Positions 27,301 to 50,050 of a stretch of DNA of 64,000 bases are shown here, piece by piece (position 1 is the stretch's first letter; every line of letters starts with the position of its first letter). The DNA comes from Bacteroidota bacterium. GTDB lineage: Bacteria; Bacteroidota; Bacteroidia; Bacteroidales; Paludibacteraceae. Location of the stretch: contig JAJYBB010000015.1 in NCBI GenBank assembly GCA_021779195.1, forward strand, positions 1-64,000, read 5' to 3'. The translations under genes and the position numbers were made by a program. The notes under the pieces are model-generated. The model did no database searches, was not told the DNA's origin, and saw nothing but the letters and a program-made list of their open reading frames with translations.

Positions 27301-27309
27301 AATTATTTG

Positions 27310-27383
27310 ATTTTAGAACAAAAAGCCAAGAGCCAAGACTCAGACATGTACATTTTTGTCTTGGTTCTTGATTCCTGGCTCTA
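27310..27383. repeat. Intercistronic dyad repeat between xylA and xylE
   Basis: The gap holds AGCCAAGAGCCAAGACTCAG against GTCTTGGTTCTTGATTCCTGGCTCT, an imperfect inverted repeat able to form a long hairpin in the xylA-xylE message. It resembles in style the other intercistronic dyads of this window and could adjust relative expression or mRNA ends. Confidence 0.45.
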
Positions 27384-27391
27384 ATGTCTGA

Positions 27392-28711: not shown

Positions 28712-28751
28712 AATTTTAATGAATTATTAATTTATTTGAATTTTGATTGAT

Positions 28752-30947: not shown

Positions 30948-30974
30948 AAAAAAATGAGTTATTAGATTAATTTT

Positions 30975-32447: not shown

Positions 32448-32507
32448 AATTTTTTATATTTACAATTTATATCACATTCCGAGTGATTAATTTCACACTT
32501 GGAAATA

Positions 32508-33710: not shown

Positions 33711-35009
33711 TTATTTCACATTAAACGCCACCCGTAACTCATCAATTTCCGTATCACCCATTGGTTGAAGCGGTCCGATTGATGAAGCCATTACCAACGA
33801 GTTAGCCGAAAATTCCGCAACTTCCAAATAATCGAAGGTATTGATAAGCTTATTGCCGGTTACAATCACCGAATCGTTTTCAACAATTACCACGCGGTTT
33901 TTCGAAAACATTTGAGCGATTTCTTCCGTGTCGTTATATAAGCTTTCGAATGGAATAGAAGGCACATCCTGCAGAAAAATCCAGCTTTCGGGAATGGTGC
34001 GCACATCAAATTTCTGATGACTTACCGCATGAGCCATAAGGTTCGTTGGCTGAGTTGTTATGATAGAATTAATATGTGGATTCAGTTGGTAAATGCGTTG
34101 ATGTAAAGCTACTGAACGGCTTGGAACTTTACCTGCTTCTGCCATTCCATTTTTAATCTGGACAATATTCTTTGGTAAAATATCCCAACGTGCAACGTCA
34201 CGTGGTGTAATCAGAAAATCATTTTCTTTCCAACGTACAGATACCGTCCCGTAAGTAGAAATCATCAATCCCTGATCACAGGCACGACGAATGATATTCA
34301 CCATATCGGTACGAATTTCACGTTCATCCGATGGATATTCAACATCCATAAACGGAGTGCTATTCTTTGGAAAATGAGTTGTGTATTTTGAAATCTGTTC
34401 ATCGGTCAGGGTGTTAACATTTCCTATTCTACCTGCATTTACAATGGTTCGACAGCAAAATTCCAATGTTTCAAAACGTTGATAAGCATCCATCATATCC
34501 GTACCACCAAGCACAACTCCGTGATTTTCCATTATCACAGCTTTGAATTTTTTATTTTTAAATTCATTGGCTATCTTTTCTCCAAGTTCAACACTCCCTG
34601 GACACCCATAGGGTGCAAAACCTATTTCGCCACAGATTGTACGGGCTTGTGGAACAATACTGGTATCAGGAACCTGACGTGCAATACTGAAAGCTACTAA
34701 TCCGGGTGGATGAGCGTGGATAATAGCAGTCAATTCAGGACGGGATTCGTAAATTGCTTTATGAAATGGATATTCTGAAGATGGTTTATGTAATCCAACG
34801 ATTGTGCCATCTTTTTTTACACACACAATGTCTTTTACGGTCAACGAACCTTTATCAACTGCGGACGGAGTAATCCATATATCCCCATTTCCATCTTTTA
34901 TGGAAATATTTCCTCCTGAAGTGGTTGTCATTCCACTCCTGTAAATACGTCCGATAATCACATTAATTTGTTCTACCGGATGCATTAAGTTAACATCTAA
35001 CTGTTTCAT
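33711..35009 (-). CDS. Double-domain class II aldolase/adducin-like protein
   Basis: A 432-residue protein made of two class II aldolase domains in tandem. The first (about residues 5-215) keeps the zinc site HAHPPG plus the later ENHGVVLGG histidine and the SSEYPFHK acidic residue, as in L-fuculose-1-phosphate aldolase. The second (about 225-432) has lost them: ITTQPTNLMAH replaces HAH, and IVENDSVIVTG lacks the histidine. Only one active site per chain is expected. The ATG at 35009 is used, because the frame extends to 35030 only through a TTG. It is the last gene of the deoxyhexose island. Its probable job is cleavage of a ketose 1-phosphate to DHAP and L-lactaldehyde, or decarboxylation of a related acid. 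Confidence 0.8.
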   Translation of the reverse strand: MKQLDVNLMHPVEQINVIIGRIYRSGMTTTSGGNISIKDGNGDIWITPSAVDKGSLTVKDIVCVKKDGTIVGLHKPSSEYPFHKAIYESRPELTAIIHAHPPGLVAFSIARQVPDTSIVPQARTICGEIGFAPYGCPGSVELGEKIANEFKNKKFKAVIMENHGVVLGGTDMMDAYQRFETLEFCCRTIVNAGRIGNVNTLTDEQISKYTTHFPKNSTPFMDVEYPSDEREIRTDMVNIIRRACDQGLMISTYGTVSVRWKENDFLITPRDVARWDILPKNIVQIKNGMAEAGKVPSRSVALHQRIYQLNPHINSIITTQPTNLMAHAVSHQKFDVRTIPESWIFLQDVPSIPFESLYNDTEEIAQMFSKNRVVIVENDSVIVTGNKLINTFDYLEVAEFSANSLVMASSIGPLQPMGDTEIDELRVAFNVK

Positions 35010-35086
35010 CTTATTTTGATTAAAGAGCAAAGAACAAAGACATTAGACTAAATATTCTCGTTCAAAACTCATTTTAAAATTTACTT

Positions 35087-36361
35087 TTACAATTTATCGG
35101 CATTCGCCAATAAATAACTTTCAGCTTCCACGCTCCACAACCCCATATTTTTATCACAAATTTCTGCGAGCGTTTTGTAAATCGCATTTGATTCTCCCAA
35201 TTTAGCAAAATCCGAAATTGGAGTCAATGGCATTTCGACATGTGTATAAATCAATTTTTTCCCTCCCGGAATTTCCGGTAAATGATTGGTGGCTTCAATC
35301 ACCGAATTCAAACCGCCGATATGAGTTATCAATCCAGCAGGGTCAAGACCTTTGCTCATCATCATGAGTGCTTCGACCATATCATCATTATTTCCTCCAC
35401 TGGTACCGGCAACGTGGGTATAGCCATAATGAACATTGTAGAAGTTGAATGTTGCACTAAAGTTCGGATCACCAGGACCTGCAAAGAAATTCAGGCAACC
35501 GTCAAATCCCAAAATAGCATCAGCTTGTTCCACCACCGGTTTTACGGGAGCAAACACAAACACATCGTTGAATCCTTCGCCATATGTGATTGCTTTCAGT
35601 TCTTCCACCGGATTTTGCATCTTGGCTGTGTTGACATACAATAATTCGATACCCCGTGAAGCTGCAAATTGAACGGTATAAAGTGAAGCAGCACGGTCGA
35701 GACGAGTTTGATCCACATCAGTTACCACGCAAAGTGCAGGTCGACGATCGTCGCGATGCAACACATAATTAATGGCTGCCAGTCCCATTGGGCCAACACC
35801 AGCCAGAATCGCCATTTTACCTCTGTCAACGATTTCCATTTTGTGAACATAACTTCCCGGAGAAAGATGATAATTGGCATGCATGGCACCAATTACGCAC
35901 GAAAGTGGTTCGGCTAAAGAGGCAGGATAAAAACCTTCGCCATGATAAGCCAGCAAACAATCTTTTTCCATTACTTCGTTCGGAATAATCACGTAAGTGG
36001 CATCGCCACCAATGTATTGATAGCTATATCCAGGTGCACTTAAAACGCCCACAGGACCAGCTTCGTAATTCAACGCAGGTTGAATAGAAAACTTATCACC
36101 TACTTTGAATTTGTGTGCCCATTTTGTTCCTACTTCAACCAATTCACCGGCAAACTCATGACCAATAATGATGGGATTTTGAGCCACATCATTGGGGATG
36201 CGTTTGTGATCAGTTCCCTGTGTAGAAGCTTTATAGGACGACATACACAACGAATCGGAAATTACTTTCGCCAATATTTCATTGTCTTTAATCTGTGGCA
36301 ATTCGAACTCTTCCAACCGAAGGTCTTTTTTGCCATATAAACGGATTGCTTTTGTTTTCAT
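35087..36361 (-). CDS. Zinc-type dehydrogenase, L-sorbose-1-phosphate reductase-like
   Basis: A 424-residue medium-chain dehydrogenase. ISDSLCMSSYKASTQG, HKRIPND and IIGHEFAGELVEVG resemble SorE, which interconverts L-sorbose 1-phosphate and glucitol 6-phosphate. The NAD fold carries ILAGVGPMGLAAINYVLH. The usual GCGxC structural zinc cluster is absent. The ATG at 36361 gives MKTKAIRLYG. A longer frame to 36400 is encoded by a short GAGTAAAC direct repeat and is unlikely. In this cluster the substrate may be a 6-deoxyketose or its phosphate, or lactaldehyde. This is inferred from position only. Confidence 0.8.
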   Translation of the reverse strand: MKTKAIRLYGKKDLRLEEFELPQIKDNEILAKVISDSLCMSSYKASTQGTDHKRIPNDVAQNPIIIGHEFAGELVEVGTKWAHKFKVGDKFSIQPALNYEAGPVGVLSAPGYSYQYIGGDATYVIIPNEVMEKDCLLAYHGEGFYPASLAEPLSCVIGAMHANYHLSPGSYVHKMEIVDRGKMAILAGVGPMGLAAINYVLHRDDRRPALCVVTDVDQTRLDRAASLYTVQFAASRGIELLYVNTAKMQNPVEELKAITYGEGFNDVFVFAPVKPVVEQADAILGFDGCLNFFAGPGDPNFSATFNFYNVHYGYTHVAGTSGGNNDDMVEALMMMSKGLDPAGLITHIGGLNSVIEATNHLPEIPGGKKLIYTHVEMPLTPISDFAKLGESNAIYKTLAEICDKNMGLWSVEAESYLLANADKL

Positions 36362-36455
36362 ATCTTTAGTTGACGAGTAAACAAGTAAACGAGTAAACAT
36401 CGAATATCAGGTTCCCGTAATTATTAATTGTAAATTATTAATTATCAATTATCAA

Positions 36456-38417
36456 TTAAGAAAGCATCACTTGCCCACCGGTAATTGGCAATGCCTGTCC
36501 GGTTTCACCACATTGCTCCATCAGGTACAGCGCACCTTTGGTAACATCCTCGGGCGAGCATCCTTTTTGCAACGGAACCTGTGCTAAGTAAAACTCTTTT
36601 ACGTCTTCAATTGTTTTGGCGCCGGGCACTTTTCCTGCATTTAAGTACTGCACAAAAAGTCCGTTTTCCGGATCACTCCAAAGCGGGCCTTCGTAAAAAT
36701 TACCCGGACAAATAGAGTTCACTTTAATACGGAACGGAGCCAATTCCAATGCAAAAGATTGAGTCAGACCAATGCCACCAAATTTACCACCGGCATAGGC
36801 AAAATTCGCCTTGCTACCACGCAAACCCGATTTAGAATTTACCTGAATAATATCAGCATAATAATCAGCGGTAGCGAATTTGGTTTGCAGCTTCATCACT
36901 TTGCTTACAACTTTTGTACAATAGAAATAAGCGTTATAGTTGATTTTCGTTACAAATTCGAAATCTTCCGGTGTCATGTCGTCCAGTCCACCCGCGCGAA
37001 GCACACCTGCATTGCTGATAAAGGTATCGATAGCTCCAAAGTTACAAATGGTTTCGTGAACTAGGTTTTCGATGCTTGGAATTTCGCTTACGTTGGTTTT
37101 CACAAAGATGGTACGGTTACTTTTTGCCAATCCGTTGAAACGCTCCACCGTAGCACGTCCAACTACTTCGTTCATGTCGGCAACAACAATATTTGCACCT
37201 TGTTGCAACAAGCAACGGGCAATTCCTTCGCCAAAGCCCTGTGCAGCTCCGGTAACAATGATGGTTTTATTCTCAGCACGACCGGCTGCTCCTCCAGCCG
37301 CCACACTGCGACGGTAGTTTTCCACTTCCCAATTGTCGATAAAGTCAATTTGCGCTTGCGTCATTGGGTGAGGACCACCAAACGATTCGGCATAATAAGC
37401 AATCTTCATGGCATCTTCGAATACATCAAGAATGATGTCGCACTGAGCAGCATTATCACCTACAGCCACCAATCCGATTCCTTTGATAAGAATTACCTTT
37501 GGCTGATAACCAAACTTGGCTGTGAAAACCGGAATTTGTTTCGCAGCCTCGGCCAATACGGCTTCCGGCTCTTCGTTGTTGAGGAAAATATAGTTCGATT
37601 TGCAATAAACAATCGCGTCCGGAGTAAATGGTTTTGCAATTTTAGCTTGCGCTTCTTCGGTGTCGTAGAAATGTTTTACCAAAGCGTTTTTGCGTACTTT
37701 CAGGGTTTTCAAACCATCTTTTGAAAGAATCATACGAATGCCCGGAAGAACTTTTTCGGTGCAACTGCAAGTAGCACGTTCTTCGGTTGGAATAGGAAAT
37801 TTCACGGCTTTTTCAAGTGTATCGAGCACCTTGGTATAAAGCACTTTCACTTCTTCAATGCTGTTGGCAGCCACGAATATTCCATGGTTTTGCAACCAGA
37901 TAACCTGAGGCTCTTCTCCGAATTGCTGACGATAAGCTTTGATAGCGTCTTCTACTTTCTTGAACAATACATAGCCCGGATCGGTGTATTCGATGTACAA
38001 TGCTTTGGTGCCAAACAGCTTCTGCAAGTCAGCCTGAGCATTATTCGCGCACATTAAACCGTTTACCAGCGTTGGGTGCATGTGTACTACAAAGGCAAAG
38101 TCAATTACATTGTGCATCGATGTTTCCACCGATGGGCGTTTGCCTTTGGTGATGGTAGCATCGGCCAAATCATTTTTTACTTGTTCTTCGCGTTCAGCCG
38201 CATTGGCACTGTACACTTTGTCGGACATGAGGTTCAGTTTGGCACGGTCGAGCACCGCAAAACCGTCTTCGGTAATGGTTGCCAACGACGAACCACTGGC
38301 TTTTACCCAAATTTTTTCTTCGTTTTTGTACGATGTATTTCCACCGCCTGCAATCACAAAACGGTTATCACGACCGTAGAATTGCGATATTTCAATTAAT
38401 TGTTGTATTTCTTTCAT
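36456..38417 (-). CDS. Bifunctional class II aldolase / short-chain dehydrogenase (RhaEW-like)
   Basis: A 653-residue fusion. The N-terminal half is a class II aldolase with the zinc ligands HMHPTLVNGL and LQNHGIFVA, and an ASGSSLATI phosphate-site loop. The C-terminal part (from about residue 390) is an NAD-binding SDR with VTGAAQGFGEGIA, NAGVLRAGG and the YAGGK active-site motif. The same order occurs in RhaEW, which splits L-rhamnulose 1-phosphate and oxidises the L-lactaldehyde formed. The ATG at 38417 (MKEIQQLIEIS) is chosen over one 24 bases upstream. It lies in the deoxyhexose island between the PHP and SorE-like genes. Substrate is inferred. Confidence 0.85.
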   Translation of the reverse strand: MKEIQQLIEISQFYGRDNRFVIAGGGNTSYKNEEKIWVKASGSSLATITEDGFAVLDRAKLNLMSDKVYSANAAEREEQVKNDLADATITKGKRPSVETSMHNVIDFAFVVHMHPTLVNGLMCANNAQADLQKLFGTKALYIEYTDPGYVLFKKVEDAIKAYRQQFGEEPQVIWLQNHGIFVAANSIEEVKVLYTKVLDTLEKAVKFPIPTEERATCSCTEKVLPGIRMILSKDGLKTLKVRKNALVKHFYDTEEAQAKIAKPFTPDAIVYCKSNYIFLNNEEPEAVLAEAAKQIPVFTAKFGYQPKVILIKGIGLVAVGDNAAQCDIILDVFEDAMKIAYYAESFGGPHPMTQAQIDFIDNWEVENYRRSVAAGGAAGRAENKTIIVTGAAQGFGEGIARCLLQQGANIVVADMNEVVGRATVERFNGLAKSNRTIFVKTNVSEIPSIENLVHETICNFGAIDTFISNAGVLRAGGLDDMTPEDFEFVTKINYNAYFYCTKVVSKVMKLQTKFATADYYADIIQVNSKSGLRGSKANFAYAGGKFGGIGLTQSFALELAPFRIKVNSICPGNFYEGPLWSDPENGLFVQYLNAGKVPGAKTIEDVKEFYLAQVPLQKGCSPEDVTKGALYLMEQCGETGQALPITGGQVMLS

Positions 38418-38430
38418 TTTTTCAAGACAC

Positions 38431-38493
38431 TTTTTCAACACGAAGACACAAAAACATGAATTTCTTTGAGTCTTGGTGACTTTGTGTTTAAAT
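38431..38493. repeat. Intercistronic dyad repeat, copy 1
   Basis: TTTTTCAACACGAAGACAC and CTTGGTGACTTTGTGTTTAA are the conserved ends of a 63-bp imperfect inverted repeat. It is nearly repeated at 42419-42484. Its right end supplies the stop codon of the PHP gene. Confidence 0.7.
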
Positions 38494-39639
38494 ATTTTCG
38501 ATTAGTTCTTTTCCCAGTTTAATAAACTCAGCTCGTTTGCTACGATCGGCTTGTCCGTTGGCATCCACGTAACCGCGGAGACCTTGTGCTACCAAATGCT
38601 GGTGAGCCGCTACCACGCAAACACCTTCGTAGTTGATTTGCAACAAACGATCGGTAAGAGGTGTGCTGTTACGTGCAAAAAGCTCAATCGGTTCCATTGC
38701 CGGCGTGTTGTGCTCGCTGCCGAATGTTACTACAAAACCCAGATTGTGAAGATAGGAGGCATATTTCTCCAACAATTCCACTCCATTGCGGGTAGTGATA
38801 AATTCCACTGAATGAAAACCACGCTCGGTCAATTGCTGAGCTACACGTTCCAAATCACCTTCGAAATCGGTGTAACCTCCTTTGGCATCATCAGCCAGAA
38901 ACGGATAGGTTGGGATACCGCCACCCGCCACGATAATATCGCAAACGGTTTGCATAGGCAAAAATGCCTTTGGATCTTCGGAAACGAAAGCGCCACCACC
39001 AGCTTTGAGCAGATTGCCACGGATTTCGTTTTCCACTCCCGCAATGTCGTTGATGCCCGATTTCAATTTTTTTCCGGCAAATAGTTTTCCGAAAAGTTGA
39101 TGAATCTGTGCTTCGTCGTTTCCGCAAGCTTCATACACTTTCAAGCGCAAAGCTTTGGCCAAATGGCGTTCGCGAATGGAACCTTTAGTCAGATCGTTTT
39201 TAATCCATTCAAAATCCAATGAGAAACCGGCATTATTCGCAGCCAGAATTTCATTTAGCTTGCCACACATGGCTTCCACCTGTGCATTGGCTTCGGCTCG
39301 CACATCGGCCAATTGCGTAGCAAAAGGCTCTGGCAAAACGAACGGATACGAAAGTCCTTTACCACTCAGGTAGGTGCGACCGGGATTTCCCGGGTCGTTC
39401 ACACGCAAACCGGCTTTTTGGTCTGCTTCGTTCAGACTGATAAATTCTATATTGAACAACGGATACAAGCCGCGTTCCTTGCAACCAACTGCCCAGGCTT
39501 CGTAGCCGGCAGTGGTATAAAAATCATTGATACCAACCACTTTTACGCCTTCGGCAACAGCCATGTCGAGCGCCTCGTCCACGTTTTTGAATGCACTGAA
39601 CGAGTAAGGTGTGTGGAGGTGTGCGTTTACTTTTTTCAT
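38488..39639 (-). CDS. PHP-domain metal-dependent hydrolase
   Basis: A 383-residue protein of the polymerase and histidinol phosphatase (PHP) superfamily. The first metal motif is AHLHTPYSFS (His7, His9). Later ligands include GINDFYTTAGY, the GGIPTYPFLADD segment and the GSEHNTPAMEP motif near the C-terminus. PHP enzymes hydrolyse phosphate esters, sometimes other bonds. The natural substrate here is unknown. It is cotranscribed with the E1 gene upstream and the aldolase-SDR gene downstream, so a sugar-phosphate-like intermediate is plausible. It is longer than histidinol phosphatases (about 270 residues), with an inserted helical part at about 105-215. Confidence 0.8.
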   Translation of the reverse strand: MKKVNAHLHTPYSFSAFKNVDEALDMAVAEGVKVVGINDFYTTAGYEAWAVGCKERGLYPLFNIEFISLNEADQKAGLRVNDPGNPGRTYLSGKGLSYPFVLPEPFATQLADVRAEANAQVEAMCGKLNEILAANNAGFSLDFEWIKNDLTKGSIRERHLAKALRLKVYEACGNDEAQIHQLFGKLFAGKKLKSGINDIAGVENEIRGNLLKAGGGAFVSEDPKAFLPMQTVCDIIVAGGGIPTYPFLADDAKGGYTDFEGDLERVAQQLTERGFHSVEFITTRNGVELLEKYASYLHNLGFVVTFGSEHNTPAMEPIELFARNSTPLTDRLLQINYEGVCVVAAHQHLVAQGLRGYVDANGQADRSKRAEFIKLGKELIENI

Positions 39640-39648
39640 ATTGTTTTT

Positions 39649-39691
39649 ACCACTAAGGCACTCAGGACACTATGTATCACTAAGTTTCTTT
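39649..39691. repeat. CACTAAGG-type repeat, single arm
   Basis: ACCACTAAGGCACTCAGGAC followed by ACTATGTATCACTAAG matches the left arm of the element at 39845-39920. It stands just before the PHP gene start, in the same 290-bp gap. Confidence 0.6.
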
Positions 39692-39844
39692 GTTTTATAT
39701 TGTGTTTTTGTATTAAAATCTTATCAATTTATTTGTCTGCAATCTGCAGAATCATCAACAGAACTCTTTTTATTATTTTGCAACTTGTACAAGCTTCAAC
39801 GGTGCATTGTTGGATAATCTACATAAAAAAACCTACTTAAATCA

Positions 39845-39920
39845 ACCACTAAGGCACTAAGGACACAAAGAAACACTAAAAAAAGATTGTGAATCTAAAT
39901 GGTCTCAGTGCCTTAGTGGT
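39845..39920. repeat. CACTAAGG-type palindromic element
   Basis: Fourteen-bp perfect arms ACCACTAAGGCACT (39845-39858) and AGTGCCTTAGTGGT (39907-39920) bound a 76-bp hairpin. It lies 12 bp after the E1 stop codon, inside the operon. It belongs to a widespread style of Bacteroidota intergenic repeat. Confidence 0.75.
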
Positions 39921-39931
39921 TAAATATTAAA

Positions 39932-42391
39932 TTATACTCCTAATTTCGATCTTCTGATAAACTCAGCATCCGTAAAGTTTTGACCCGGAACATAGCCTGC
40001 CAACGGTTGGATGCGTTCGTTAATCATATCGAGGAACCAGCTCGGCTGTGCAAAGAATGAACTTTCCAACTCATAAGCAGGAGTAATCCAGTTGCGCGAG
40101 CCCAAAACAGCCACGGGTGCATCTAAATAATCGAAGCAAAGGGTACTGACATTGGCTGCAAAATCGTTGAGGAACGAACCACGAGTAGTGGCATCGCTTG
40201 CCACAATGATTTTTCCAGTTTTTTTCACTGATTCCACGACTTGTTCATAGTTGAATGGCACCAACGATCGGGCATCAATCACTTCAGCCGACATACCGTA
40301 TTTTTCTTCCAATTCTTTGGCTGCAGCTAAAGCTGGGTATAAAGTATGTCCAATGGTAAGGAAGGTAATATCGTTGCCTTCTTTTTTGATATCGGGCTCG
40401 CCGAATGGAATTTCGTAGTAACCTTCAGGAACGCCGCCTTTGTGGAATTGTTCGCCAATTTCGTAGATGCGTTGACTTTCGAAGTAAACCACAGGGTCAG
40501 TTCCTTGCAAGGCTGAGTTCATCAATCCTTTTGCATCGTAAGGAGTTACCGGAAAACAAACTTTCAAGCCGGGAATATGAGCCACAAGCGAAGTCCAATC
40601 CTGCGAATGTTGAGCGCCATATTTTGAACCAACTGATACACGAAGTGTGATAGGCATTTTCAACACGTTGCCACTCATGGCTTGCCATTTAGGCATTTGG
40701 TTAAACACTTCATCACCACTACGTCCGAGAAAGTCGCAATACATAATTTCAGGAACCACACGTCCGCCGCACATGGCATATCCAATGGCTGTACCAACAA
40801 TTGAAGCTTCAGCAATAGGTGAATTGAATAAACGATGATACGGCAATGCTTCGGTCATGCCACCATAAACAGCAAATGCTCCACCCCAGTCGCGGTTTTC
40901 TTCGCCATAAGCAATCAGGGAAGCGTCCTGATAAAAGCGATGCATCAACGCTTCGAAAATACCATCACGCAACTGAAATTGTTTCATTTTGCTGAATGGT
41001 TTTCCATCCGCATCAAAAGCAAAACGTTCTTTGGCAGCAATTTTTTTGACACGCGAATTTTCTTCTAATGGTATCAACACTTCGGGTTTAGCCGTAGAAA
41101 AAGAATCAACTGAGCCGTTTGAAAAAATCATATCGCTAATAATTTCTGGATTTTTCATTCGGGGCGAAACTTCATCATCAATTGCTTTCAATAATATTTC
41201 ATGAATAAGTAGTTTCACATCATTCCATGTTGCATCCAAATCAACTTGAGAAGAAATACCGGCATCAATCAGCTGCTTTCCAAACGAAACGATGCAATCT
41301 TGATTTTCCCAAGCTTCCACTTCTTCTTTCGAGCGGTATGAAGATGCATCCGAAGGCGAGTGTCCGCTGTAACGGTAGGTTAGAACGTCTAATAAAACCG
41401 GACCTCTTTTCTCTTCAATGATAATGCGTTTGCGTTTGTAAGCATCAATCACAGCCAACGGATTGTATCCATCTACTCGCTCAGCATGCATTTGCTCAGG
41501 ATTTACACCCGCACCAATACGAGCCGCAATATCATATCCCATTGTTTCTCCTTTGGTTTGTCCGCCCATACCGTATTGGTTATTCATAATATTGATTATC
41601 ACGGGCAATCCACCTTTCATATCACCTTCCCAAAGTTGGTTAAACTGATCCATTGAGGCAAAATTAATACCTTCCCACACCGGACCGCAAGCCATTGAAG
41701 CATCTCCAATATTTGCAACAACCAACCCTTTTTGACGATTAACTTTTTTGTATAAGGCAGCTCCAACAGCAATATCAGCCGAACCTCCTACAATTGCATT
41801 GTTAGGAAACACACCAAATGGTGTGAAGAATGCATGCATCGATCCACCCAAACCACGGTTGAAACCGGTTTCGCGAGCAAATATTTCGGCTAGAGTACCG
41901 TAAACAAGGAAACGGCGCGCCAATTCTTTCGTAGTGCCTGTAAAATCTTTCTTAACTACCTTGAGAACTGCACCATCGAAAAACGATTCCATAATGTCCA
42001 TCAACTGTTTGTCATCCAATTTGTGAATGGCTGACATACCTTTGGCAAGAATTTCGCCATGTGAACGGTGACTCCCGAAAATATAATCGTCAACGGTTAA
42101 TGTCCACGCCATACCGACAGCTGCCGATTCCTGTCCGATAGACAAGTGTGCCGGACCGGGGTGATTGTAGGGAGTGCCGTTATATTCACCTTTGGTTTTG
42201 ATCAAATTGATCATGGTTTCAAATTCCCGAATCAACACCATGTCGTGATAAATGGCTATAAATTCGTCGTTGGTAAAATTACCTTTTTCGTCTTTTACGG
42301 TTTTCTGATATTGGTTGACAGGAATTGGTTGAAATTCTATAAATCCTGCATTCCGTGCTTCTGATGGATCAATAAATTGTACTTTTGGCAT
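39932..42391 (-). CDS. Fused alpha-beta E1 component of a 2-oxoacid or acyloin dehydrogenase complex
   Basis: An 819-residue thiamine diphosphate enzyme with E1-alpha (to about 410) and E1-beta (about 460-800) joined in one chain. The ThDP motif is GDAS (residues 229-231) with NN at 270-271, where the usual second glycine is alanine. The beta part has the catalytic-type AYGEENRDWGG, the potassium and interface segments, and FDYLDAPVAVLGS. It decarboxylates or cleaves a keto substrate and passes the acyl group to lipoyl-E2. Pyruvate, a branched 2-oxoacid and an acyloin are all possible. E2 and E3 genes lie directly upstream in the same orientation. The chain is longer than usual fused E1 proteins (about 660-680), with an N-terminal extension. 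Confidence 0.85.
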   Translation of the reverse strand: MPKVQFIDPSEARNAGFIEFQPIPVNQYQKTVKDEKGNFTNDEFIAIYHDMVLIREFETMINLIKTKGEYNGTPYNHPGPAHLSIGQESAAVGMAWTLTVDDYIFGSHRSHGEILAKGMSAIHKLDDKQLMDIMESFFDGAVLKVVKKDFTGTTKELARRFLVYGTLAEIFARETGFNRGLGGSMHAFFTPFGVFPNNAIVGGSADIAVGAALYKKVNRQKGLVVANIGDASMACGPVWEGINFASMDQFNQLWEGDMKGGLPVIINIMNNQYGMGGQTKGETMGYDIAARIGAGVNPEQMHAERVDGYNPLAVIDAYKRKRIIIEEKRGPVLLDVLTYRYSGHSPSDASSYRSKEEVEAWENQDCIVSFGKQLIDAGISSQVDLDATWNDVKLLIHEILLKAIDDEVSPRMKNPEIISDMIFSNGSVDSFSTAKPEVLIPLEENSRVKKIAAKERFAFDADGKPFSKMKQFQLRDGIFEALMHRFYQDASLIAYGEENRDWGGAFAVYGGMTEALPYHRLFNSPIAEASIVGTAIGYAMCGGRVVPEIMYCDFLGRSGDEVFNQMPKWQAMSGNVLKMPITLRVSVGSKYGAQHSQDWTSLVAHIPGLKVCFPVTPYDAKGLMNSALQGTDPVVYFESQRIYEIGEQFHKGGVPEGYYEIPFGEPDIKKEGNDITFLTIGHTLYPALAAAKELEEKYGMSAEVIDARSLVPFNYEQVVESVKKTGKIIVASDATTRGSFLNDFAANVSTLCFDYLDAPVAVLGSRNWITPAYELESSFFAQPSWFLDMINERIQPLAGYVPGQNFTDAEFIRRSKLGV

Positions 42392-42418
42392 TGTATAATT
42401 GGTTTATTTGTTTGTTAT

Positions 42419-42484
42419 TTTTTCAACACGAAGACATTGAGACACAAAAAACATGTTCTTTTCTTGGTGACTTTGTGTTTAAAT
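42419..42484. repeat. Intercistronic dyad repeat, copy 2
   Basis: This 66-bp element repeats copy 1 at 38431-38493: TTTTTCAACACGAAGACA at the left and CTTGGTGACTTTGTGTTTAA at the right, with a slightly different centre. It fills the gap between the E3 and E1 genes. Confidence 0.7.
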
Positions 42485-42485
42485 C

Positions 42486-43841
42486 TTAAAACGCAAAAAT
42501 CGTTTCTTTAAATATTTCACTCACGGTTGGATGTGGAAAAACTACTTCCTGCATTTCTGTTAATGTCATTTCTTGTTCAATAGCCATGCATGCTCCATAA
42601 ATGATTTCACTGCCGGGATTTCCCAGCATGTGAACGCCGATTATTTCGTTATACCTTTCACCAACAAGCACTTTGCATAATCCAGTTCCTCCTTCGTTTT
42701 CAGCTACAAAACGTCCGGCATACGCCATTGGCAGTTTAGCAACTTTATAGGCAATTCCTTTCGCTTTAGCAGATTCTTCTGTTTCGCCAACTGCAGCGAC
42801 TTCAGGGTTGGTGTAAACTACACCCGGAATGGCATTATAACGCATTACGTCAGTTCTTCCGGTCAAGTTATTTACCACTACTTCACCTTCGCGGGAAGCA
42901 GTGTGAGCCAACAATGAAAATCCGGTTACGTCGCCTGCTGCAAATACATTGGGCACATTGGTTCGCATTTTTTCATCCACTTTGATACCGCCTTTAAACA
43001 ATTCCACATTCAAATTTTCCAATCCGAATCCTTTTGTAATCGCACGGCGACCAACGCTTACCAATATTTTATCTCCTTCAATTGTTTCTATTTTACCGTC
43101 TTTTTCGAAGATCACATTTTTGCCATCTACTTTTACAACTTTAGCATTCAGATTAAATTCGATGCCTTTCTTTCCGTAAATATCGCGAAGCATGGCAGAA
43201 ATTTCAAAATCATTGTTCCCCAAAATTTCAGGAAGCATTTCAATAACGGTTACTTTTGAACCCAGGCTATTATAAATACTGGCAAACTCCATCCCGATAA
43301 CACCTCCGCCAATGATTACCAGAGAAGCCGGTTGCTCTTTCAAGTCCAGAATTTCACGGTTGGTCAGGATAATGTCGCCTGCTTCGTCCAATCCCGGAAT
43401 AGGTGGAACAAATGCTTCTGAACCGGTACAAATCAATAAATTCGTTCCAAGGTAAGTCTCACCTTCACAAGTCACCTCCACACCTTTCGGGCTACGTCCC
43501 ACGATCATGGCTTCGCCTTTTACCACAGTAACATGGTTTATTTTCATAGCGCTTTCAACGCCTGCAACCAGCTTGCGAACCACTTTATTTTTACGGGCAA
43601 CAATTTTACTGTAATCAAAACGGATATTTTCGCCAAAAACTCCATATTTATCTCCATGTACAGCATTTTCGTACGTTTTGGCACTGTAAAGCATGGTTTT
43701 GGTCGGGATGCAACCTTCGTTGAGACATACACCGCCCATGGCTTTCTTTTCGAATAAAATGACTGAAAGTCCTTTATGTCCTGCACGTTCAGCAGCAACA
43801 TATCCGGCAGGTCCACCGCCAATTATAATTAAGTCAAACAT
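42486..43841 (-). CDS. lpdA: Dihydrolipoyl dehydrogenase (E3)
   Basis: A 451-residue flavoprotein that reoxidises the dihydrolipoyl arm with NAD. It has the FAD fold IIGGGPAGYVAAERAG, the redox disulfide GGVCLNEGCIPTK, the NAD fold VIIGGGVIGMEFASIY, the second FAD motif NVFAAGDVTG and the catalytic HPTVSE near the C-terminus. It lies between the E2 and E1 genes and so serves this dedicated complex. Confidence 0.95.
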   Translation of the reverse strand: MFDLIIIGGGPAGYVAAERAGHKGLSVILFEKKAMGGVCLNEGCIPTKTMLYSAKTYENAVHGDKYGVFGENIRFDYSKIVARKNKVVRKLVAGVESAMKINHVTVVKGEAMIVGRSPKGVEVTCEGETYLGTNLLICTGSEAFVPPIPGLDEAGDIILTNREILDLKEQPASLVIIGGGVIGMEFASIYNSLGSKVTVIEMLPEILGNNDFEISAMLRDIYGKKGIEFNLNAKVVKVDGKNVIFEKDGKIETIEGDKILVSVGRRAITKGFGLENLNVELFKGGIKVDEKMRTNVPNVFAAGDVTGFSLLAHTASREGEVVVNNLTGRTDVMRYNAIPGVVYTNPEVAAVGETEESAKAKGIAYKVAKLPMAYAGRFVAENEGGTGLCKVLVGERYNEIIGVHMLGNPGSEIIYGACMAIEQEMTLTEMQEVVFPHPTVSEIFKETIFAF

Positions 43842-43953
43842 TTTTTTTTGTTATTAAAAGATTTATTATTTAGGATTGAATAGAAGGCTCAAATTTACAA
43901 TAATTATTACGATTATAACAAATTACGGATTCCTTGCATCTTACATCTTATTC

Positions 43954-45294
43954 CTAAAAAATATCAAACTCTAATGTTTCAATCTCTATTGCAATTTGTT
44001 TCAAAAAACGCGTTGCTTCGCCACCATCCAAAGCACGGTGATCGTATGTAAGGCTAAGACCGATATAGGGAACAAATGCAAAAACTCCATCACCCAAATC
44101 CTTCGGACGTGGAACAATGGTGTTCACACCCAAGATGGCTGATTGAGGCAAATTGATAACCGGCGTAAACATTTCAACGCCGTAAGCTCCAAGGTTTGAA
44201 ACGGTGAATGTAGCTGCTTCGGCAGCTAACAATTCAGGTGAAATAGCACCTTTTTTGCAGCTGTTAGCTACTTCTTTTAATTGATTGGACAAACCTATAA
44301 TCGACAAATCGTCGGCATTGCGCACAGCGGGAACCATCAAACCTCGTTCAGTATCAACAGCCAATCCGAGATGAACTTTGTTGAATAAACGCATCGAATC
44401 CCCCAGGAAGTGTGAGTTAACATTCGGGAATTTCTTCAATGCTTTTACTACTGCAAAACAAACGAAATCGTTTATGGTCAGATTGGTCGACAACGTTCCT
44501 GCTTCGAATGCTTTTTTGGCTTTCTTGCGCAAGTTTTGGATATTTCGTGCATCGGCTCCCAAATGGTGGGTAAGTTGTGCTGAATTTTGTAACGAAGAGT
44601 GCATTGCTTTTGCAATCAACTTGCGCATGTTCGATAACTTTTGATCTTCGTAATCCAGTCCATAAACTGCATTTACTGGAGTAATTAAATCAGTTGATTT
44701 TGCTGTTCCGGCGAGACCTGAGCCTGAACCTTGGGGCTGAACACCTTCTTCGGCAGCAATTTTCTTAGCCAACGAGGTCAATCTTGGACGGTTTTCCAAG
44801 ACAGTCCGTACGTCTTTTTCAATTACACGCCCTTTTGGACCAGTACCAGTTAACGTTTTAAAGTCCAGGGCTTCTTTTTCGGCAAGATTTTTTGCCCGTG
44901 GAGAAACGAAAGGAGAATTTGCAGTTTGCAGTTTATTATTTGCAGTTTCGAATTCCAGGTTTTGGGTTTCAGGTTTTGATTCCACGATTGGTTCAGCATC
45001 TTGGCTCTTCGTTTCAACCGGTGAACCACCTTGTAATAAACCGGCATAATCCTCACCATGCTGACCGATAACCATCATGTCGAGAAGAACAGGCACTTCG
45101 TCGCTTTCGTTGTAAAAACATTCAAGCACAACACCATCAGCAGGTGATTCTTCTTCAAACGAGGCTTTATCTGTTTCGTAGGCAAATAAAATATCTCCTT
45201 TTTTTACGGTATCTCCTTTTTTCTTTTTGATTTCGGTAATGATACAACTTTCCACCGATTGCCCTTGTTTAGGCAGAATAACTACTACAGCCAT
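43954..45294 (-). CDS. Dihydrolipoamide acyltransferase (E2)
   Basis: A 446-residue E2 core protein with three parts. The N-terminal lipoyl domain carries ETDKASFE with the lipoylated Lys43. The peripheral-subunit-binding domain is about residues 130-168 (VSPRAKNLAEKEALD, GTGPKGRVIEKDV). The catalytic domain has the active histidine in YDHRALDGGEA. The linker before the binding domain (ETANNKLQTANSP) is encoded by near-direct TTTGCAGT repeats (44918-44948). The acyl group carried is unknown. It is the first gene of the E2-E3-E1 set, 72 bp after the kinase gene. Confidence 0.9.
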   Translation of the reverse strand: MAVVVILPKQGQSVESCIITEIKKKKGDTVKKGDILFAYETDKASFEEESPADGVVLECFYNESDEVPVLLDMMVIGQHGEDYAGLLQGGSPVETKSQDAEPIVESKPETQNLEFETANNKLQTANSPFVSPRAKNLAEKEALDFKTLTGTGPKGRVIEKDVRTVLENRPRLTSLAKKIAAEEGVQPQGSGSGLAGTAKSTDLITPVNAVYGLDYEDQKLSNMRKLIAKAMHSSLQNSAQLTHHLGADARNIQNLRKKAKKAFEAGTLSTNLTINDFVCFAVVKALKKFPNVNSHFLGDSMRLFNKVHLGLAVDTERGLMVPAVRNADDLSIIGLSNQLKEVANSCKKGAISPELLAAEAATFTVSNLGAYGVEMFTPVINLPQSAILGVNTIVPRPKDLGDGVFAFVPYIGLSLTYDHRALDGGEATRFLKQIAIEIETLEFDIF

Positions 45295-45366
45295 ATATTT
45301 ATTAACTATTTTTTCATTTACAATATATTATTGATTGATAATCAACCAATCTAAAATTCAGCAATA

Positions 45367-46845
45367 TTATTTTAATCCGGTTACAGCAATAAATTTATTA
45401 TATGCTTCTGTCCAAATTTCGGAATTTTGCGGAAGGAATTCATCAATCTGTACCGATTCGGCGATAATTCTGCGCATTTCCGGTAAAGATTTTACAAACC
45501 CCGCTGCTTTCGCCTGAATCATGATATTTCCAATTGCTGTAGCTTCGGAAGGACCGGCAGCCACGGGAATTCCAATTGCATTGGCAGTCCACTGATTAAG
45601 TAAGGGATTTTTAGACCCTCCGCCTATAACATGGAGTTTTTCAATCGGGAATGGTGCTAACCCTTTCAGTTTTCCCAAAACATAATTATATTTCAACGAT
45701 AGACTTTCGAAAATACAGCGAACGAATTCGGCATGCGTTGAAGGCACAATTTGCTTTGTGGCAACACAAAAATCAGCAATTGCAGAGGTCATTTTATCGG
45801 GATTTGCAAATGACACATCATCAGGGTCAATAACTGACTGAAAAGCATGAACAGTTTCGGCCATGTGCACTAATTTTTCATAATCGTAACTAATTCCTTC
45901 TTTTTTCCATTCTTTCAAACATTGTTCAAGCAACCACATTCCGGTGATATTTTTGAGAAAACGAGTCGTGCCTTCTACCCCACCCTCATTGGTGAAATTC
46001 AGTTCTGAAGTTTCTTTGTTAATAATGGCATCATTTACTTCAATGCCCATTAATGACCAGGTTCCCGAACTCAGGTAGGCAAAGTTTTTATTGTCAGCCG
46101 GAACTGCCGCAACAGCTGAACCCGTATCATGTCCGGCAACGGTAACCACAGGTACATTACCTAATTCACATTCATCGGCAATATCATTGCGCAATATACC
46201 GATTTTATGTCCCGGCATAACGATATCGCCCAAAATTGAAGGTAAAACGCCTGCTCCTTCGAGTAATTCAGGTTCGAATTTTTTTGTACGAGGATTTAAA
46301 ATTTGTGAAGTAGAAGCAATGGTATATTCCACTACTTTGTTCCCTGTCAGCATATAAGCCAATGCATCAGGCATAAATAAAATTTCTTTGGTTGCTTTCA
46401 GCAATGAATTGCCAGCTTGGCTCAGTGCAAAAAGTTGATATAAACTATTGAAATTCATCACCTGAATTCCAGTCAAATCATATACTTTCTCTCGGGGTAT
46501 AATTTCAAAAAATTTTTCAGGAGCACCAATGGTATGCGGATCACGATAAGCATAAGGAGCACCCAGAATAGAACCGTCATCGGCTAACAGGACAAAATCA
46601 ACACCCCAAGTATCAATTCCGATGGATGTAATTTCTACACCTTCTTTTTTGGCAGCAACTAATCCTTCTTTTAAATGTTCAAAAAGAGAATAGATATTCC
46701 AATGAAAATGATTTCCGATTTGAAGAATTTGGTTTGGGAATCGGGTAAGTTCCTTTAATTCAATTCGATTATTTTCGATTGTTCCCAAAATTGTACGACC
46801 ACTGGTTGCTCCCAAATCGAAAGCTAAAAACGATTTTCTTTCCAT
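45367..46845 (-). CDS. rhaB: Rhamnulokinase-like FGGY carbohydrate kinase
   Basis: A 492-residue FGGY kinase of the RhaB subgroup, predicted to phosphorylate L-rhamnulose and perhaps L-fuculose at O1. Motifs are AFDLGATSGRTILG, the substrate region GIDTWGVDFVLL with AYRDPHT, AGHDTGSAVAAVP, SSGTWSLMG and VIGGGSKNPLLNQWTANA. It follows fucI after 265 bp and is the only sugar kinase in the deoxyhexose island. One kinase may therefore serve both sugars. Assignment to rhamnulose is by family resemblance. Confidence 0.85.
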   Translation of the reverse strand: MERKSFLAFDLGATSGRTILGTIENNRIELKELTRFPNQILQIGNHFHWNIYSLFEHLKEGLVAAKKEGVEITSIGIDTWGVDFVLLADDGSILGAPYAYRDPHTIGAPEKFFEIIPREKVYDLTGIQVMNFNSLYQLFALSQAGNSLLKATKEILFMPDALAYMLTGNKVVEYTIASTSQILNPRTKKFEPELLEGAGVLPSILGDIVMPGHKIGILRNDIADECELGNVPVVTVAGHDTGSAVAAVPADNKNFAYLSSGTWSLMGIEVNDAIINKETSELNFTNEGGVEGTTRFLKNITGMWLLEQCLKEWKKEGISYDYEKLVHMAETVHAFQSVIDPDDVSFANPDKMTSAIADFCVATKQIVPSTHAEFVRCIFESLSLKYNYVLGKLKGLAPFPIEKLHVIGGGSKNPLLNQWTANAIGIPVAAGPSEATAIGNIMIQAKAAGFVKSLPEMRRIIAESVQIDEFLPQNSEIWTEAYNKFIAVTGLK

Positions 46846-47040
46846 TTTTTATTAGATTTTACAGGTAATAAATATGTAATACATAGACTTCTATCTATTT
46901 ATAAAATGCAATTAAAGTTTTACTGCATTATACACTAAATTTCGGATACAAAGTTATTCATTAACCGATTAAAAATCCTAAGAAAATTGACTAAATAACT
47001 TCTTTTTTTGATAAAGATATAAAGCCGGAACAATGATAAC

Positions 47041-47076
47041 AAGAATGAATATCAACTTTCGTCAATATTCATTCTT
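47041..47076. terminator. 12-bp perfect inverted repeat after fucI
   Basis: AAGAATGAATAT (47041-47052) and ATATTCATTCTT (47065-47076) enclose a 12-base loop, 35 bp past the fucI stop. No T tract follows on the minus strand, so it may protect mRNA 3' ends or be an operator before the kinase gene. Confidence 0.45.
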
Positions 47077-47110
47077 AATAATTAACAAATTTCATTCTAT
47101 TATTCTGAAA

Positions 47111-48901
47111 TTATTTGTAAAGAGCTCCATAAGTTTGACATGCACGATAATCCGAACCTTCAGCATCCATTCCAAAAGCGCCCCATGCACTTGGACGGAA
47201 AATTTTTTCGTCAGGAACATTATGCATACAAACCGGAATGCGCAACATGGAAGCCAACGTTATCAGATCTGCACCAATATGTCCATAGCTGATTGCCCCA
47301 TGGTTTGCACCCCAGTTATTCATTACGCTGAACACATCTTTAAACTGTTGTGTTTTGTTTAAACGCGGTGCGAACCAAGTAGTTGGCCATGTTTTATCAG
47401 TACGGATATTTATAATATGGTGTACATTTTCAGGTAAATCAACCGTCCATCCTTCGGCAATTTGCAACACAGGACCAAGTCCTTTAATTCGATTCAACCG
47501 GAGCATTGTTACAGGCATTTCTCCTTTGGAAAGAAAGTTTGATGAAAAACCACCACCTCGAAAATAACCTTGATCGGCAGGATACCAGGTAGTTGCATCT
47601 AGACATTTCAGAACTTCTTCTTCAGTGATATCCCAAAATGGCTTCATTGTTGGTTTTCCATTTGTATCAGTTTGTTGTCCGGTAGCATCGAGACAGGTCG
47701 CACCTGAATTAATCAGATGAATAATTCCGTTTGCAGCAGCCCCTTCAAGCTGATAACCGGTAACCCGTTTTACAGCTTCAGGACTCCAGAATGTACGTAC
47801 ATCTGAAAAAATGGAGGCAGTATTTGTTAACAAGTGTCCGAACATCATGGATACGCCATTTAACGAATCGTTTTCGGTTGCCAACACGAAAGCTTCGCGG
47901 ATGCCGTTCCAGTCGAAAGAAGAACAAAGCAGTGCTTCGCTGAAATCTCCGTTGACCATAAAATCGGTCCACTGACGCTGCCCTTGAAAACCAGCCACAA
48001 TTGCATTATGGCCGAGGGCTTCTTCTGCAAATCCTAACGCTTTAAGTTTTGGATTACCAATCATCAGGTCGCGTATAATCAATGTCATTTTAACCACATA
48101 TTCCCAATCTTTTGACTTTTGTTCGGCTGTGCTTTTCTTTTCTGGAGCATTGAAGTCGTTTCCCTCGTTTACTTTACATAATTTTTCAGTCCAATCCATT
48201 GCTTTTCTAAATTCTTCAGGATCATAGATACCTTTCTCAACACGACGGATAATCTCAACTTCGTCGACTGCTTCAACGCGAATACCCAGATAATCCTGAA
48301 AAAAGTCGGGATCGACAACAGAACCTGCAATGCCCATACACTGACCACCAATGCCTAAATATGATTTACCGCGCATCATAGCCACTGCTAAACCCGACTT
48401 TACAAAACGAACAATTTTTTCTTTAACATCGGATGGAATACTGGTATCGGTACTATCCTGAACATGCTGCCCATAAATACCGAAAGCAGGAATCCCTTTT
48501 TGATTATGACCGGCCAATGCTGCTGCCAGATAAACAGCTCCCGGACGCTCGGTGCCATTAAAACCCCAAATGGCTTTCGGATAATATGGATTTACATCGA
48601 TGGTTTCAGTTCCGTAAGCCCAACAGGGAGTAACCGACAATGTTAAACCAACACCTTCTTTTTCAAATTTTTCAGCACAAGCAGCAGCTTCGGGTACACG
48701 TCCAATGGTACTGTCGGCAATGACGCATTGAACCGGCGTTCCATCTGGATAAAATAGTGTTGAGGAAATCAAAGTTGCTGCACTTTTAGCCATATTCATG
48801 GTTTGCTCTTCTAAACTTTCGCGAACGCCTCCTTGACGACCATCGATAATGGGACGAATCCCTACTTTGGGATATTCTCCCTGTAATCTTTTAGTTTTCA
48901 T
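47111..48901 (-). CDS. fucI: L-fucose isomerase
   Basis: A 596-residue manganese-dependent ketol isomerase converting L-fucose to L-fuculose, also known to accept D-arabinose. Conserved segments are [20 protein letters not shown] at the N-terminus, [54 protein letters not shown] and [18 protein letters not shown]. Length and sequence match the E. coli and Bacteroides enzymes (about 591 residues). It is preceded by a candidate FucR site and a terminator-like hairpin. Confidence 0.96.
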
Positions 48902-49063: not shown

Positions 49064-50050
49064 TTATAAAGAATTTCTGATTATCAATTCTGTAGGTATA
49101 TACTCCTGAATCGATTTTTTAGCGGTTACAAAATAAGCCGCCTTTTCACCCATTAATCCAAAATCAATACTAATCGATGAAATTCCGTTTTTAATAACTT
49201 CGAGCACAGATTCATTGTTATAAGCGATTAAACCATAATCCTGACCAATAATCAATCCGGCAGAATCTGCTTCTTTAATTAATTTAACAAGATCTTCAGA
49301 CAGGATACACAGATAGGCGGTTCCAACTTCAACTCCTATTTTATCAGACTCTTTGCGTAAAATTTCGTACTCAAAATTCTGCAACACACAGAATTTTTTA
49401 AAATATTCAATTGCGCTGATTGGATGGCAGATTTCTTCAGGGAAAACGAAGGAAATTTTCTTGTATTTTTTGAATAAATCAAGGCTTTGATTTAAACAAT
49501 TGTAAAACGATTCATCAAAATCCTGGCAAATATATGAAAAGGATGACTTTTCAAAATTACCAAAATCTAACAGCAGTAATTTGCTTGGCGGAATCAGCTT
49601 CAATGCATCTGAAAGTTGTTCGTTTGAAAAATTCATCACCACGTACATGCTGTAATTACCAATACTTTCGCGAATTATGGTGTCGAACAATCGTTCATTA
49701 TACTGATGAAAAATCAGATCAACTTTGTAATTATCAGGCAAATTAGCCACAAACCGGTGAAAAAGATTTTGTTTGAACGACGAATAAGTATCCAGAAGCA
49801 ACAAGACATGATTCACATCGGCTTTTACATAATAGCCTTTCATCGGATTTGAATCAATAATACCTCTATTTTTAAGAATTTTATATGCCTTAAATACTGT
49901 ATCCCGTGAAACTTTATAACGCGAACTTGCCTCGTTGATGGACGACAAATTATCGCCTACCTTTAAATCACCTTGCATAATGGAAAGACTGATTCCATCA
50001 ACAAGCGATTTTATTTTAGAAGATGAATTTGAAAATTTTATGTTCGACAT
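49064..50050 (-). CDS. fucR: GntR/LacI-hybrid regulator of fucose genes
   Basis: A 328-residue regulator. Residues 1-75 form a GntR winged helix (SSINEASSRYKVSRDTVFKAYKIL with wing MKGYYV). Residues 85-325 form a periplasmic-binding-like sensor, ending FGLMGEKAAYFVTAKKS as in LacI family proteins. This architecture is that of FucR of Bacteroides, which represses fucose genes until L-fucose binds. It is 15 bp after fucP in one operon. Candidate operator sites precede both fucP and fucI, so autoregulation is likely. Confidence 0.85.
   Translation of the reverse strand: MSNIKFSNSSSKIKSLVDGISLSIMQGDLKVGDNLSSINEASSRYKVSRDTVFKAYKILKNRGIIDSNPMKGYYVKADVNHVLLLLDTYSSFKQNLFHRFVANLPDNYKVDLIFHQYNERLFDTIIRESIGNYSMYVVMNFSNEQLSDALKLIPPSKLLLLDFGNFEKSSFSYICQDFDESFYNCLNQSLDLFKKYKKISFVFPEEICHPISAIEYFKKFCVLQNFEYEILRKESDKIGVEVGTAYLCILSEDLVKLIKEADSAGLIIGQDYGLIAYNNESVLEVIKNGISSISIDFGLMGEKAAYFVTAKKSIQEYIPTELIIRNSL

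Follow-up and report, generated by a model that had tools for sequence, protein, structure and literature searches.

A putative acetoin-dehydrogenase-type complex within a fucose-rhamnose gene island of Bacteroidales

Here, we analysed a 64-kb stretch of DNA (the window; positions 1 to 64,000 of contig JAJYBB010000015.1, assembly GCA_021779195.1) from a member of the Bacteroidales family Paludibacteraceae, in which the three components of a thiamine/lipoate dehydrogenase complex, namely a fused E1, E2 and E3, are encoded amid genes for the breakdown of L-fucose and L-rhamnose. The host genome comprises 3.12 Mb, and Paludibacter and other Bacteroidales assemblies are its nearest named relatives among the E1 matches listed. 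The genes of the locus are given below in their order of transcription, the two E1 motifs following their gene.

53685-54947, minus strand: RhaA, L-rhamnose isomerase (TIGR01748, 638 bits, cut-off 585)
52539-53573, minus strand: RhaT, L-rhamnose transporter (PF06379)
51505-52395, minus strand: AraC regulator adjoining RhaT (PF12833, PF02311)
50066-51388, minus strand: major facilitator superfamily (MFS) transporter (PF07690)
49064-50050, minus strand: GntR-type regulator with sugar-binding domain (PF00392, PF13377)
47111-48901, minus strand: FucI, L-fucose isomerase (TIGR01089, 1064.2 bits, above the cut-off of 850)
45367-46845, minus strand: FGGY kinase, rhamnulokinase-like (TIGR02627, 504.2 bits, a near miss of the cut-off of 527.95; fuculokinase model, 155 bits)
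43954-45294, minus strand: E2 with lipoyl, E3-binding and acyltransferase domains (PF00364, PF02817, PF00198)
42486-43841, minus strand: E3, dihydrolipoyl dehydrogenase (TIGR01350, 491 bits, cut-off 409)
39932-42391, minus strand: fused alpha/beta E1 of 819 amino acids, acetoin-type as judged by trees and motif (PF00676, PF02779, PF02780)
42056-42070, minus strand: HRSHG motif of E1, residues 108-112 (alignment; His-Arg as in acetoin-type rows)
41699-41707, minus strand: GDA of the thiamine-diphosphate motif of E1, residues 229-231 (alignment)
38488-39639, minus strand: PHP-fold protein, probable phosphoesterase (PF02811, 24.6 bits, just below the cut-off of 26.4)
36456-38441, minus strand: class II aldolase fused to a short-chain dehydrogenase/reductase (SDR), RhaEW-like (PF00596 and PF00106)
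35087-36400, minus strand: Zn-dependent medium-chain dehydrogenase (ZnADH), distantly sorbitol-dehydrogenase/IolM-like (PF08240, PF00107)
33711-35030, minus strand: doubled class II aldolase (two PF00596 stretches; best NCBIfam model 3-oxo-tetronate-4-phosphate decarboxylase, 162 bits, cut-off 250)

Intergenic gaps in the cassette measure 46-112 bp, except for those between FucI and the kinase (265 bp) and between E1 and the PHP gene (292 bp). A sequence-only reading of the window had described E2, E3, the fused E1, the PHP protein, the dehydrogenase and the aldolases as a single-orientation group in a fucose-rhamnose island. This description is confirmed, as all of them lie on the minus strand and belong to the expected families, with RhaA and RhaT in the same island. 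It had also assigned FucI together with its kinase, of which FucI stands (1064.2 of 850 bits), but the kinase is rhamnulokinase-like and not a fuculokinase (504 versus 155 bits).

Among the enzymes encoded next to the complex, ZnADH scores 65.6 bits with the IolM model (cut-off 450) and has sorbitol dehydrogenase (3qe3) as its best match in the PDB. Its pairing with E1 resembles that of butanediol dehydrogenase with acetoin dehydrogenase in two plasmid loci, L195 and L202 (loci are numbered with L, genomes with G). The aldolase/SDR fusion fails the RhaEW model TIGR02632, which is nevertheless its best model (225.8 of 567.75 bits), and reaches 200 bits with the sorbitol-6-phosphate dehydrogenase model (cut-off 307). 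In the PDB, its SDR part likewise matches sorbitol-6-phosphate dehydrogenase best (5o3z), and truncated homologues that consist of the SDR only have this enzyme as their best model. For the PHP protein, a structure model with a pLDDT of 90 has its nearest PDB folds in RNase AM (9etk) and in the metal-dependent phosphoesterases 2yb1 and 3o0f/3e0f (TM-scores 0.52-0.57); the protein is probably a phosphoesterase that acts on a phosphorylated intermediate.

To follow the cassette across genomes, GTDB species genomes were scanned with an alignment of eight E1 proteins, which gave at least 561 relatives. The best 80 of them (76-91% identity) were kept with flanks of up to 10 kb and, together with L118 (57%, from another part of the phylum) and 44 stretches from a sample of the order, make up 125 loci, of which 120 are distinct. 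Cultured relatives represented among the loci include Proteiniphilum acetatigenes DSM 18083 (L063) and Natronoflexus pectinivorans DSM 24179 (L098). Partner genes were counted in the 78 distinct loci that extend at least 2.5 kb upstream and at least 5.5 kb downstream. E2, PHP, SDR and ZnADH are all present in 59 of these; taken singly, E2 occurs in 76, PHP, SDR (with or without the aldolase) and ZnADH in 67 each, and E3 in 58. The order E2-(E3)-E1-PHP-SDR-ZnADH is mostly retained at E1 identities of 66-91%. A lipoate-protein ligase gene lies near E1 in 18 of the 78 loci and a GntR-UTRA regulator in 35, the latter being divergent wherever the layout was viewed. In six loci (L157, L158, L159, L162, L171, L176) a HAD phosphatase directly precedes ZnADH; the one in L159 reaches 158 bits with the phosphoglycolate phosphatase model, below its cut-off of 225.

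The E1 family is narrow within the phylum, since an even sample of 395 genomes yielded only the window genome and G219 (E 1e-130), and it is found in 54 of the 393 genomes of the order sample. FucI or RhaA is encoded in 49 of these 54 E1-positive genomes (window genome included) compared to 79 of 339 E1-negative ones, and RhaA alone in 46 of 54 compared to 42 of 339, both counts being uncorrected for kinship and genome size. Given the four partners shared by 59 of 78 loci and the enrichment of the isomerases in E1-positive genomes, we regard the linkage of the cassette as not due to chance.

What kind of E1 does the cassette encode? The window protein stays far below the cut-offs of both pyruvate dehydrogenase (PDH) E1-alpha models, TIGR03181 and TIGR03182 (131.4 bits, cut-off 411.35, and 194.9 bits, cut-off 393.85), while another E1-alpha of the same genome exceeds one of them (448.8 of 411.35 bits); on these grounds we rejected the window E1 as the PDH of the cell. 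A carefully built tree of 41 rows groups the family in a single clade with plasmid-borne E1s of Rhizobium, Agrobacterium and Pleomorphomonas (support 100/100, stem 1.96). This clade lies outside the PDH_y clade and outside the group of PDH_x and branched-chain 2-oxoacid dehydrogenase (BCKDH); a position inside such clades without linkage to deoxyhexose genes, which the sequence-only reading had named as the case against itself, was not found in the best tree. The tree instead joins the family with acetoin dehydrogenases and with E1s whose neighbours are sugar regulators, kinases or a glucitol phosphotransferase system (PTS); its nearest row is an E1 from Arthrobacter, encoded next to an FGGY kinase. 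In the best tree the acetoin rows by themselves do not form its sister group, an arrangement that the approximately unbiased (AU) test neither establishes nor rejects (p = 0.128). A quick tree of 52 rows, built without the PDH_y rows, puts the family on the acetoin side (SH-aLRT 99).

The best-tree placement agrees with a sequence marker, which we drew from our own alignment and from no curated source: all 125 distinct family proteins have His-Arg at the HRxHG site (123 HRSHG, 2 HRSHA), as do all three acetoin rows and all six sugar-linked or AcoC-linked rows in the alignment. Tyr/Phe-Arg stands there in all nine rows shown of other types (four PDH_y, four PDH_x/BCKDH, one fused). Another 14 E1-alpha loci have it in nine cases, with five unread. 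E528, H595 and H344 of the window E1 are invariant in 18 homologues, and we take their catalytic roles to be those known from PDH structures. According to the domain search, E1 together with E2 and E3 has the thiamine-binding domains and conserved Glu and His residues that an acetoin dehydrogenase complex would have. Two peculiarities that had been pointed out in E1 did not withstand comparison: other E1-type open reading frames of 782-845 amino acids occur in Bacteroidota, so that a length of 819 is not unusual, and GDA in place of GDG is a lineage trait and no special change of the active site (among the 125 distinct family proteins, 112 read GDA and nine GDG, with four unread). An AlphaFold model of E1 was not used (mean pLDDT 50).

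Comparison with acetoin dehydrogenases encoded on plasmids (L195, L198, L202; with butanediol dehydrogenase in L195 and L202) reveals the same E1-E2 domain families (E3 in L195 and L202), the His-Arg motif and a neighbouring branch in the best tree. The window E1 differs in that it is fused, only 29-31% identical and 12 residues longer before the NN motif; moreover, it lies beside sugar isomerases and a kinase, and an acoX-type or sigma-54 gene is absent among its annotated neighbours in the window. An E1 match of any kind was found in 16 of 721 plasmid records. Closer relatives are the proteins annotated as 'alpha-ketoacid dehydrogenase subunit alpha/beta' on plasmids of Rhizobium, Agrobacterium and Pleomorphomonas (L116, L120, L121, L122), which belong to the same E1 family (51.7-53.5% identity over 96-97% of the length) and likewise have sugar transporters and kinases nearby. 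In contrast to the window, the E2 that follows their E1 is divided between two proteins, one small and lipoyl-bearing, the other an alpha/beta hydrolase, named AcoC in L122 (L116 15001-18532, L120, L122), and PHP, SDR and ZnADH are not annotated directly beside E1, a mannitol-dehydrogenase-family gene being near in L120. The latter locus also has lipA near E1. Acetoin-type E1 complexes of other phyla lie in L215 (Priestia plasmid), L194 (Arthrobacter), L216 (Tritonibacter) and L196 (Clostridioides difficile plasmid), where they are annotated as pyruvate/alpha-ketoacid dehydrogenase or generic E1 and have a glucitol PTS, FGGY kinases, sugar ABC transporters or sugar-binding regulators as neighbours.

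Two further systems concern rhamnose itself. In Chloroflexus and B. subtilis, RhaEW has been validated as an enzyme with aldolase and lactaldehyde dehydrogenase functions, and it is also reported in Bacteroidetes, according to the part of the source available (PMC3870299). Like RhaEW, the window protein is a class II aldolase-SDR fusion adjoining rhamnose genes, but it attains 226 bits where 568 are required, its SDR part is closest in the PDB to sorbitol-6-phosphate dehydrogenase, and 18 of 67 homologous loci encode the SDR only. For Caldicellulosiruptor bescii, the accessible sections of another study predict a three-subunit acetoin-dehydrogenase homologue (Athe_0702-4) in the RhaR2 regulon and propose it for the lactaldehyde step, while leaving it without an assigned function elsewhere (PMC8579813). 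It shares with the window complex the location of an acetoin-dehydrogenase homologue within a rhamnose gene cluster. It differs in having three subunits and in being predicted only, a set of PHP, ZnADH and SDR is not described in those sections, and we liken the two by description and not by sequence (PMC8579813). A rhamnose-linked homologue of acetoin dehydrogenase has accordingly been predicted once before, in Caldicellulosiruptor, and judged by its genes the Bacteroidales cassette is wider and richer; a literature search by title found nothing on the latter.

Taken together, these results led us to a proposal to which we give an even chance, namely that the cassette encodes a dedicated thiamine/lipoate complex of the acetoin dehydrogenase type, used mainly in the breakdown of 6-deoxyhexoses. 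FucI or RhaA and the kinase would provide a 6-deoxyketose 1-phosphate. By analogy with the butanediol dehydrogenase encoded beside acetoin dehydrogenase, ZnADH would oxidise the carbon of the CH3-CHOH-R end to the methyl ketone CH3-CO-R, which E1 with its thiamine diphosphate would attack, breaking the adjacent C-C bond, and E2 and E3 would hand the acetyl group to CoA with formation of NADH. That ZnADH supplies a methyl ketone from which the complex forms acetyl-CoA, an aldehyde or acid and NADH appears to us as evenly poised as the general statement. R might be either the remainder of L-lactaldehyde after the action of aldolase and SDR or the uncleaved sugar chain, in which case a ketone at C5 and a cut between C4 and C5 would leave a C4 unit, so that the complex may act after the aldolase or in its place; the PHP protein would be the probable phosphoesterase for a phosphorylated intermediate. 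Either R would allow a single cassette to handle both sugars, C4 being the only centre that distinguishes L-fuculose from L-rhamnulose. The sequence-only reading had suggested a dedicated complex that cleaves an acyloin or diketone. We consider this partly borne out and a fair guess because the family has its own clade and partners, the genome has a separate PDH E1-alpha, the isomerases co-occur, and acetoin-type E1s are nearer in the best tree; its weaker side comprises the AU results and the isomerase-free genomes discussed below.

The variant in which a 6-deoxy sugar phosphate is oxidised at C5 by ZnADH and cut between C4 and C5 by E1-E2-E3, yielding acetyl-CoA and a C4 sugar phosphate without lactaldehyde or an aldolase, appears decidedly unlikely to us. 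As the C4 stereochemistry is lost in such a cut, one cassette would serve both sugars. Of the 67 loci with SDR, 49 have the aldolase fused to it, while in 18 the aldolase domain is cleanly cut off. We dropped the SDR-only loci as a sign of an aldolase-free route, since 11 of 12 such genomes examined retain a separate class II aldolase frame of 350-390 amino acids; the point is therefore supported by G688 alone, a single genome. Among 63 E1-positive genomes examined, a match to the class II aldolase family was absent genome-wide in G688 (99% complete), G698 (76%) and G847, the last of which also lacks FucI and RhaA. The G688 locus is the most informative of all and counts in favour of the general proposal as well: FucI is followed there by L-fuculokinase (FucK), L-fucose mutarotase (FucU) and FucP, all above their cut-offs, then by two divergent regulators and by E2-E3-E1-PHP-SDR-HAD-ZnADH-FSA; RhaA was not found in this genome. 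Lacking a class II aldolase, G688 would have to cut fuculose-1-phosphate with its FSA-family protein, with an aldolase from some other family or through the E1 route.

Several observations weigh against the proposed 6-deoxyhexose complex. In the 41-row tree, support is only 86/77 for the node that unites the family with acetoin and sugar-linked E1s and 90/91 for that with the nearest row, and the AU test rejects neither a placement with PDH_y (p = 0.123) nor one with PDH_x/BCKDH (p = 0.192). Where a locus extends 7 kb to either side of E1 (66 loci), RhaA or FucI is within range in only 23 cases, and any of RhaA, FucI, RhaT or a RhaB-like kinase in 27. Neither isomerase is encoded in the genomes behind L052 and L071 or in G219, despite a close or related E1, so that the substrate may not be specific to deoxyhexoses. 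In the complete genome of Petrimonas sp. IBARAKI (AP018040.2), identical E1 proteins are encoded at L092, a rhamnose-type cassette, and at L058, beside GH92 genes and an FSA-like gene, which speaks against an exclusive deoxyhexose link. No deoxyhexose isomerase is annotated in the sugar loci that contain the Rhizobium and Agrobacterium members, and a CH3-CHOH end is not apparent there. Nine loci lack both PHP and SDR; ZnADH is kept beside E1 in five of them (L052, L058, L115, L118, L162), which favours the proposal, but is absent as well in four (L071, L163, L168, L180). A class II aldolase-family match, epimerases and relatives included, is present in 60 of the 63 E1-positive genomes, and the PHP and HAD phosphatases are left without a role. 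Finally, Caldicellulosiruptor saccharolyticus, a relative of C. bescii, converts rhamnose to 1,2-propanediol and acetate at 1:1 according to the part of the source available, so that lactaldehyde is reduced there and such an oxidation is not needed (PMC4187192). The genome behind L071, which lacks both isomerases, has an FGGY kinase, a SIS-domain isomerase and a triose-phosphate-isomerase-family protein (L071 3725-6545) upstream of E2-E3-E1-FSA.

Three other explanations have to be considered, and the likelihoods that we attach to lactaldehyde-derived, uncleaved sugar phosphate, pyruvate and general ketose phosphate substrates partly overlap with that of the general statement. It is possible, if doubtful, that the aldolase acts first and that ZnADH or SDR then forms methylglyoxal or hydroxyacetone, from which E1 would release acetyl-CoA and a C1 unit, or that E1 oxidises lactaldehyde to an acyl-CoA. 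The frequent aldolase-SDR fusion and the separate aldolase frames of SDR-only genomes are in line with this route, as is the lactaldehyde step proposed for the Caldicellulosiruptor homologue in the accessible sections of that study (PMC8579813). However, G688 possesses FucI, FucK, FucU and FucP without a class II aldolase, for which the FSA-family protein would have to substitute, and a formate or formaldehyde enzyme is absent among the annotated neighbour families, many neighbours being unannotated.

Alternatively, the complex could be a sugar-induced pyruvate dehydrogenase of the pathway, in which a RhaEW-type enzyme turns lactaldehyde into L-lactate, pyruvate follows and E1-E2-E3 form acetyl-CoA. 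The validated role of RhaEW in Chloroflexus and B. subtilis, as given in the part of the source available (PMC3870299), would fit, and pyruvate, being common to every sugar, would explain loci without deoxyhexose genes; PDH models are also the best NCBIfam matches of E1, and the AU test is compatible with a PDH placement. We nevertheless consider this explanation unlikely: E1 scores far below the PDH cut-offs, has His-Arg instead of Tyr/Phe-Arg and shares its genome with an E1-alpha that passes, the neighbouring ZnADH, PHP and transaldolase genes are left unaccounted for, and the aldolase/SDR protein reaches only 226 of 568 bits with the RhaEW model.

An oxidative transketolase, in which E1 splits a two-carbon unit off a ketose phosphate to give glycoloyl-CoA (or acetyl-CoA if the sugar is a deoxy sugar) and leaves tetrose phosphate to transaldolase, is improbable: TalAB equivalogs in L063, L064, L080 and L102, FSA/TalC-like genes in 7 and mannitol-1-phosphate-dehydrogenase-like genes in 8 of 120 loci, and PfkB, lyxose-isomerase or triose-phosphate-isomerase-family genes, for instance in L052, L071, L175 and L192, would suit it, but either type of transaldolase occurs in only 11 of 120 loci and ketoses with a phosphate at C1 lend themselves poorly to C2-C3 cleavage.

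Both fucose and rhamnose are common in mucins, algae and pectin. The textbook pathway for them passes through toxic lactaldehyde, with propanediol or lactate as the end product. The complex probably turns part of the two sugars into acetyl-CoA by a hypothetical route. If true, this would alter which fermentation products and energy yields are predicted for the numerous Bacteroidales with the cassette. In several phyla, sugar loci repeatedly contain acetoin-type E1 complexes that are labelled as dehydrogenases of pyruvate or alpha-ketoacids.

At the end of the cassette, the doubled class II aldolase (33711-35030) has HxHP and NHG motifs in its first half, which are lost in the second as judged by eye, and the second half is likely a dead or structural domain. 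The adjoining xylose cluster (24489-33218) encodes GH43, a sugar MFS transporter, xylose isomerase (697 bits, cut-off 459), GH3, a xylulokinase-like kinase and a NUDIX/NrtR-AraR-type regulator. Near the rhamnose genes, a carboxyltransferase subunit resembling methylmalonyl-CoA decarboxylase alpha is encoded at 56749-58293 (762 bits, cut-off 999).

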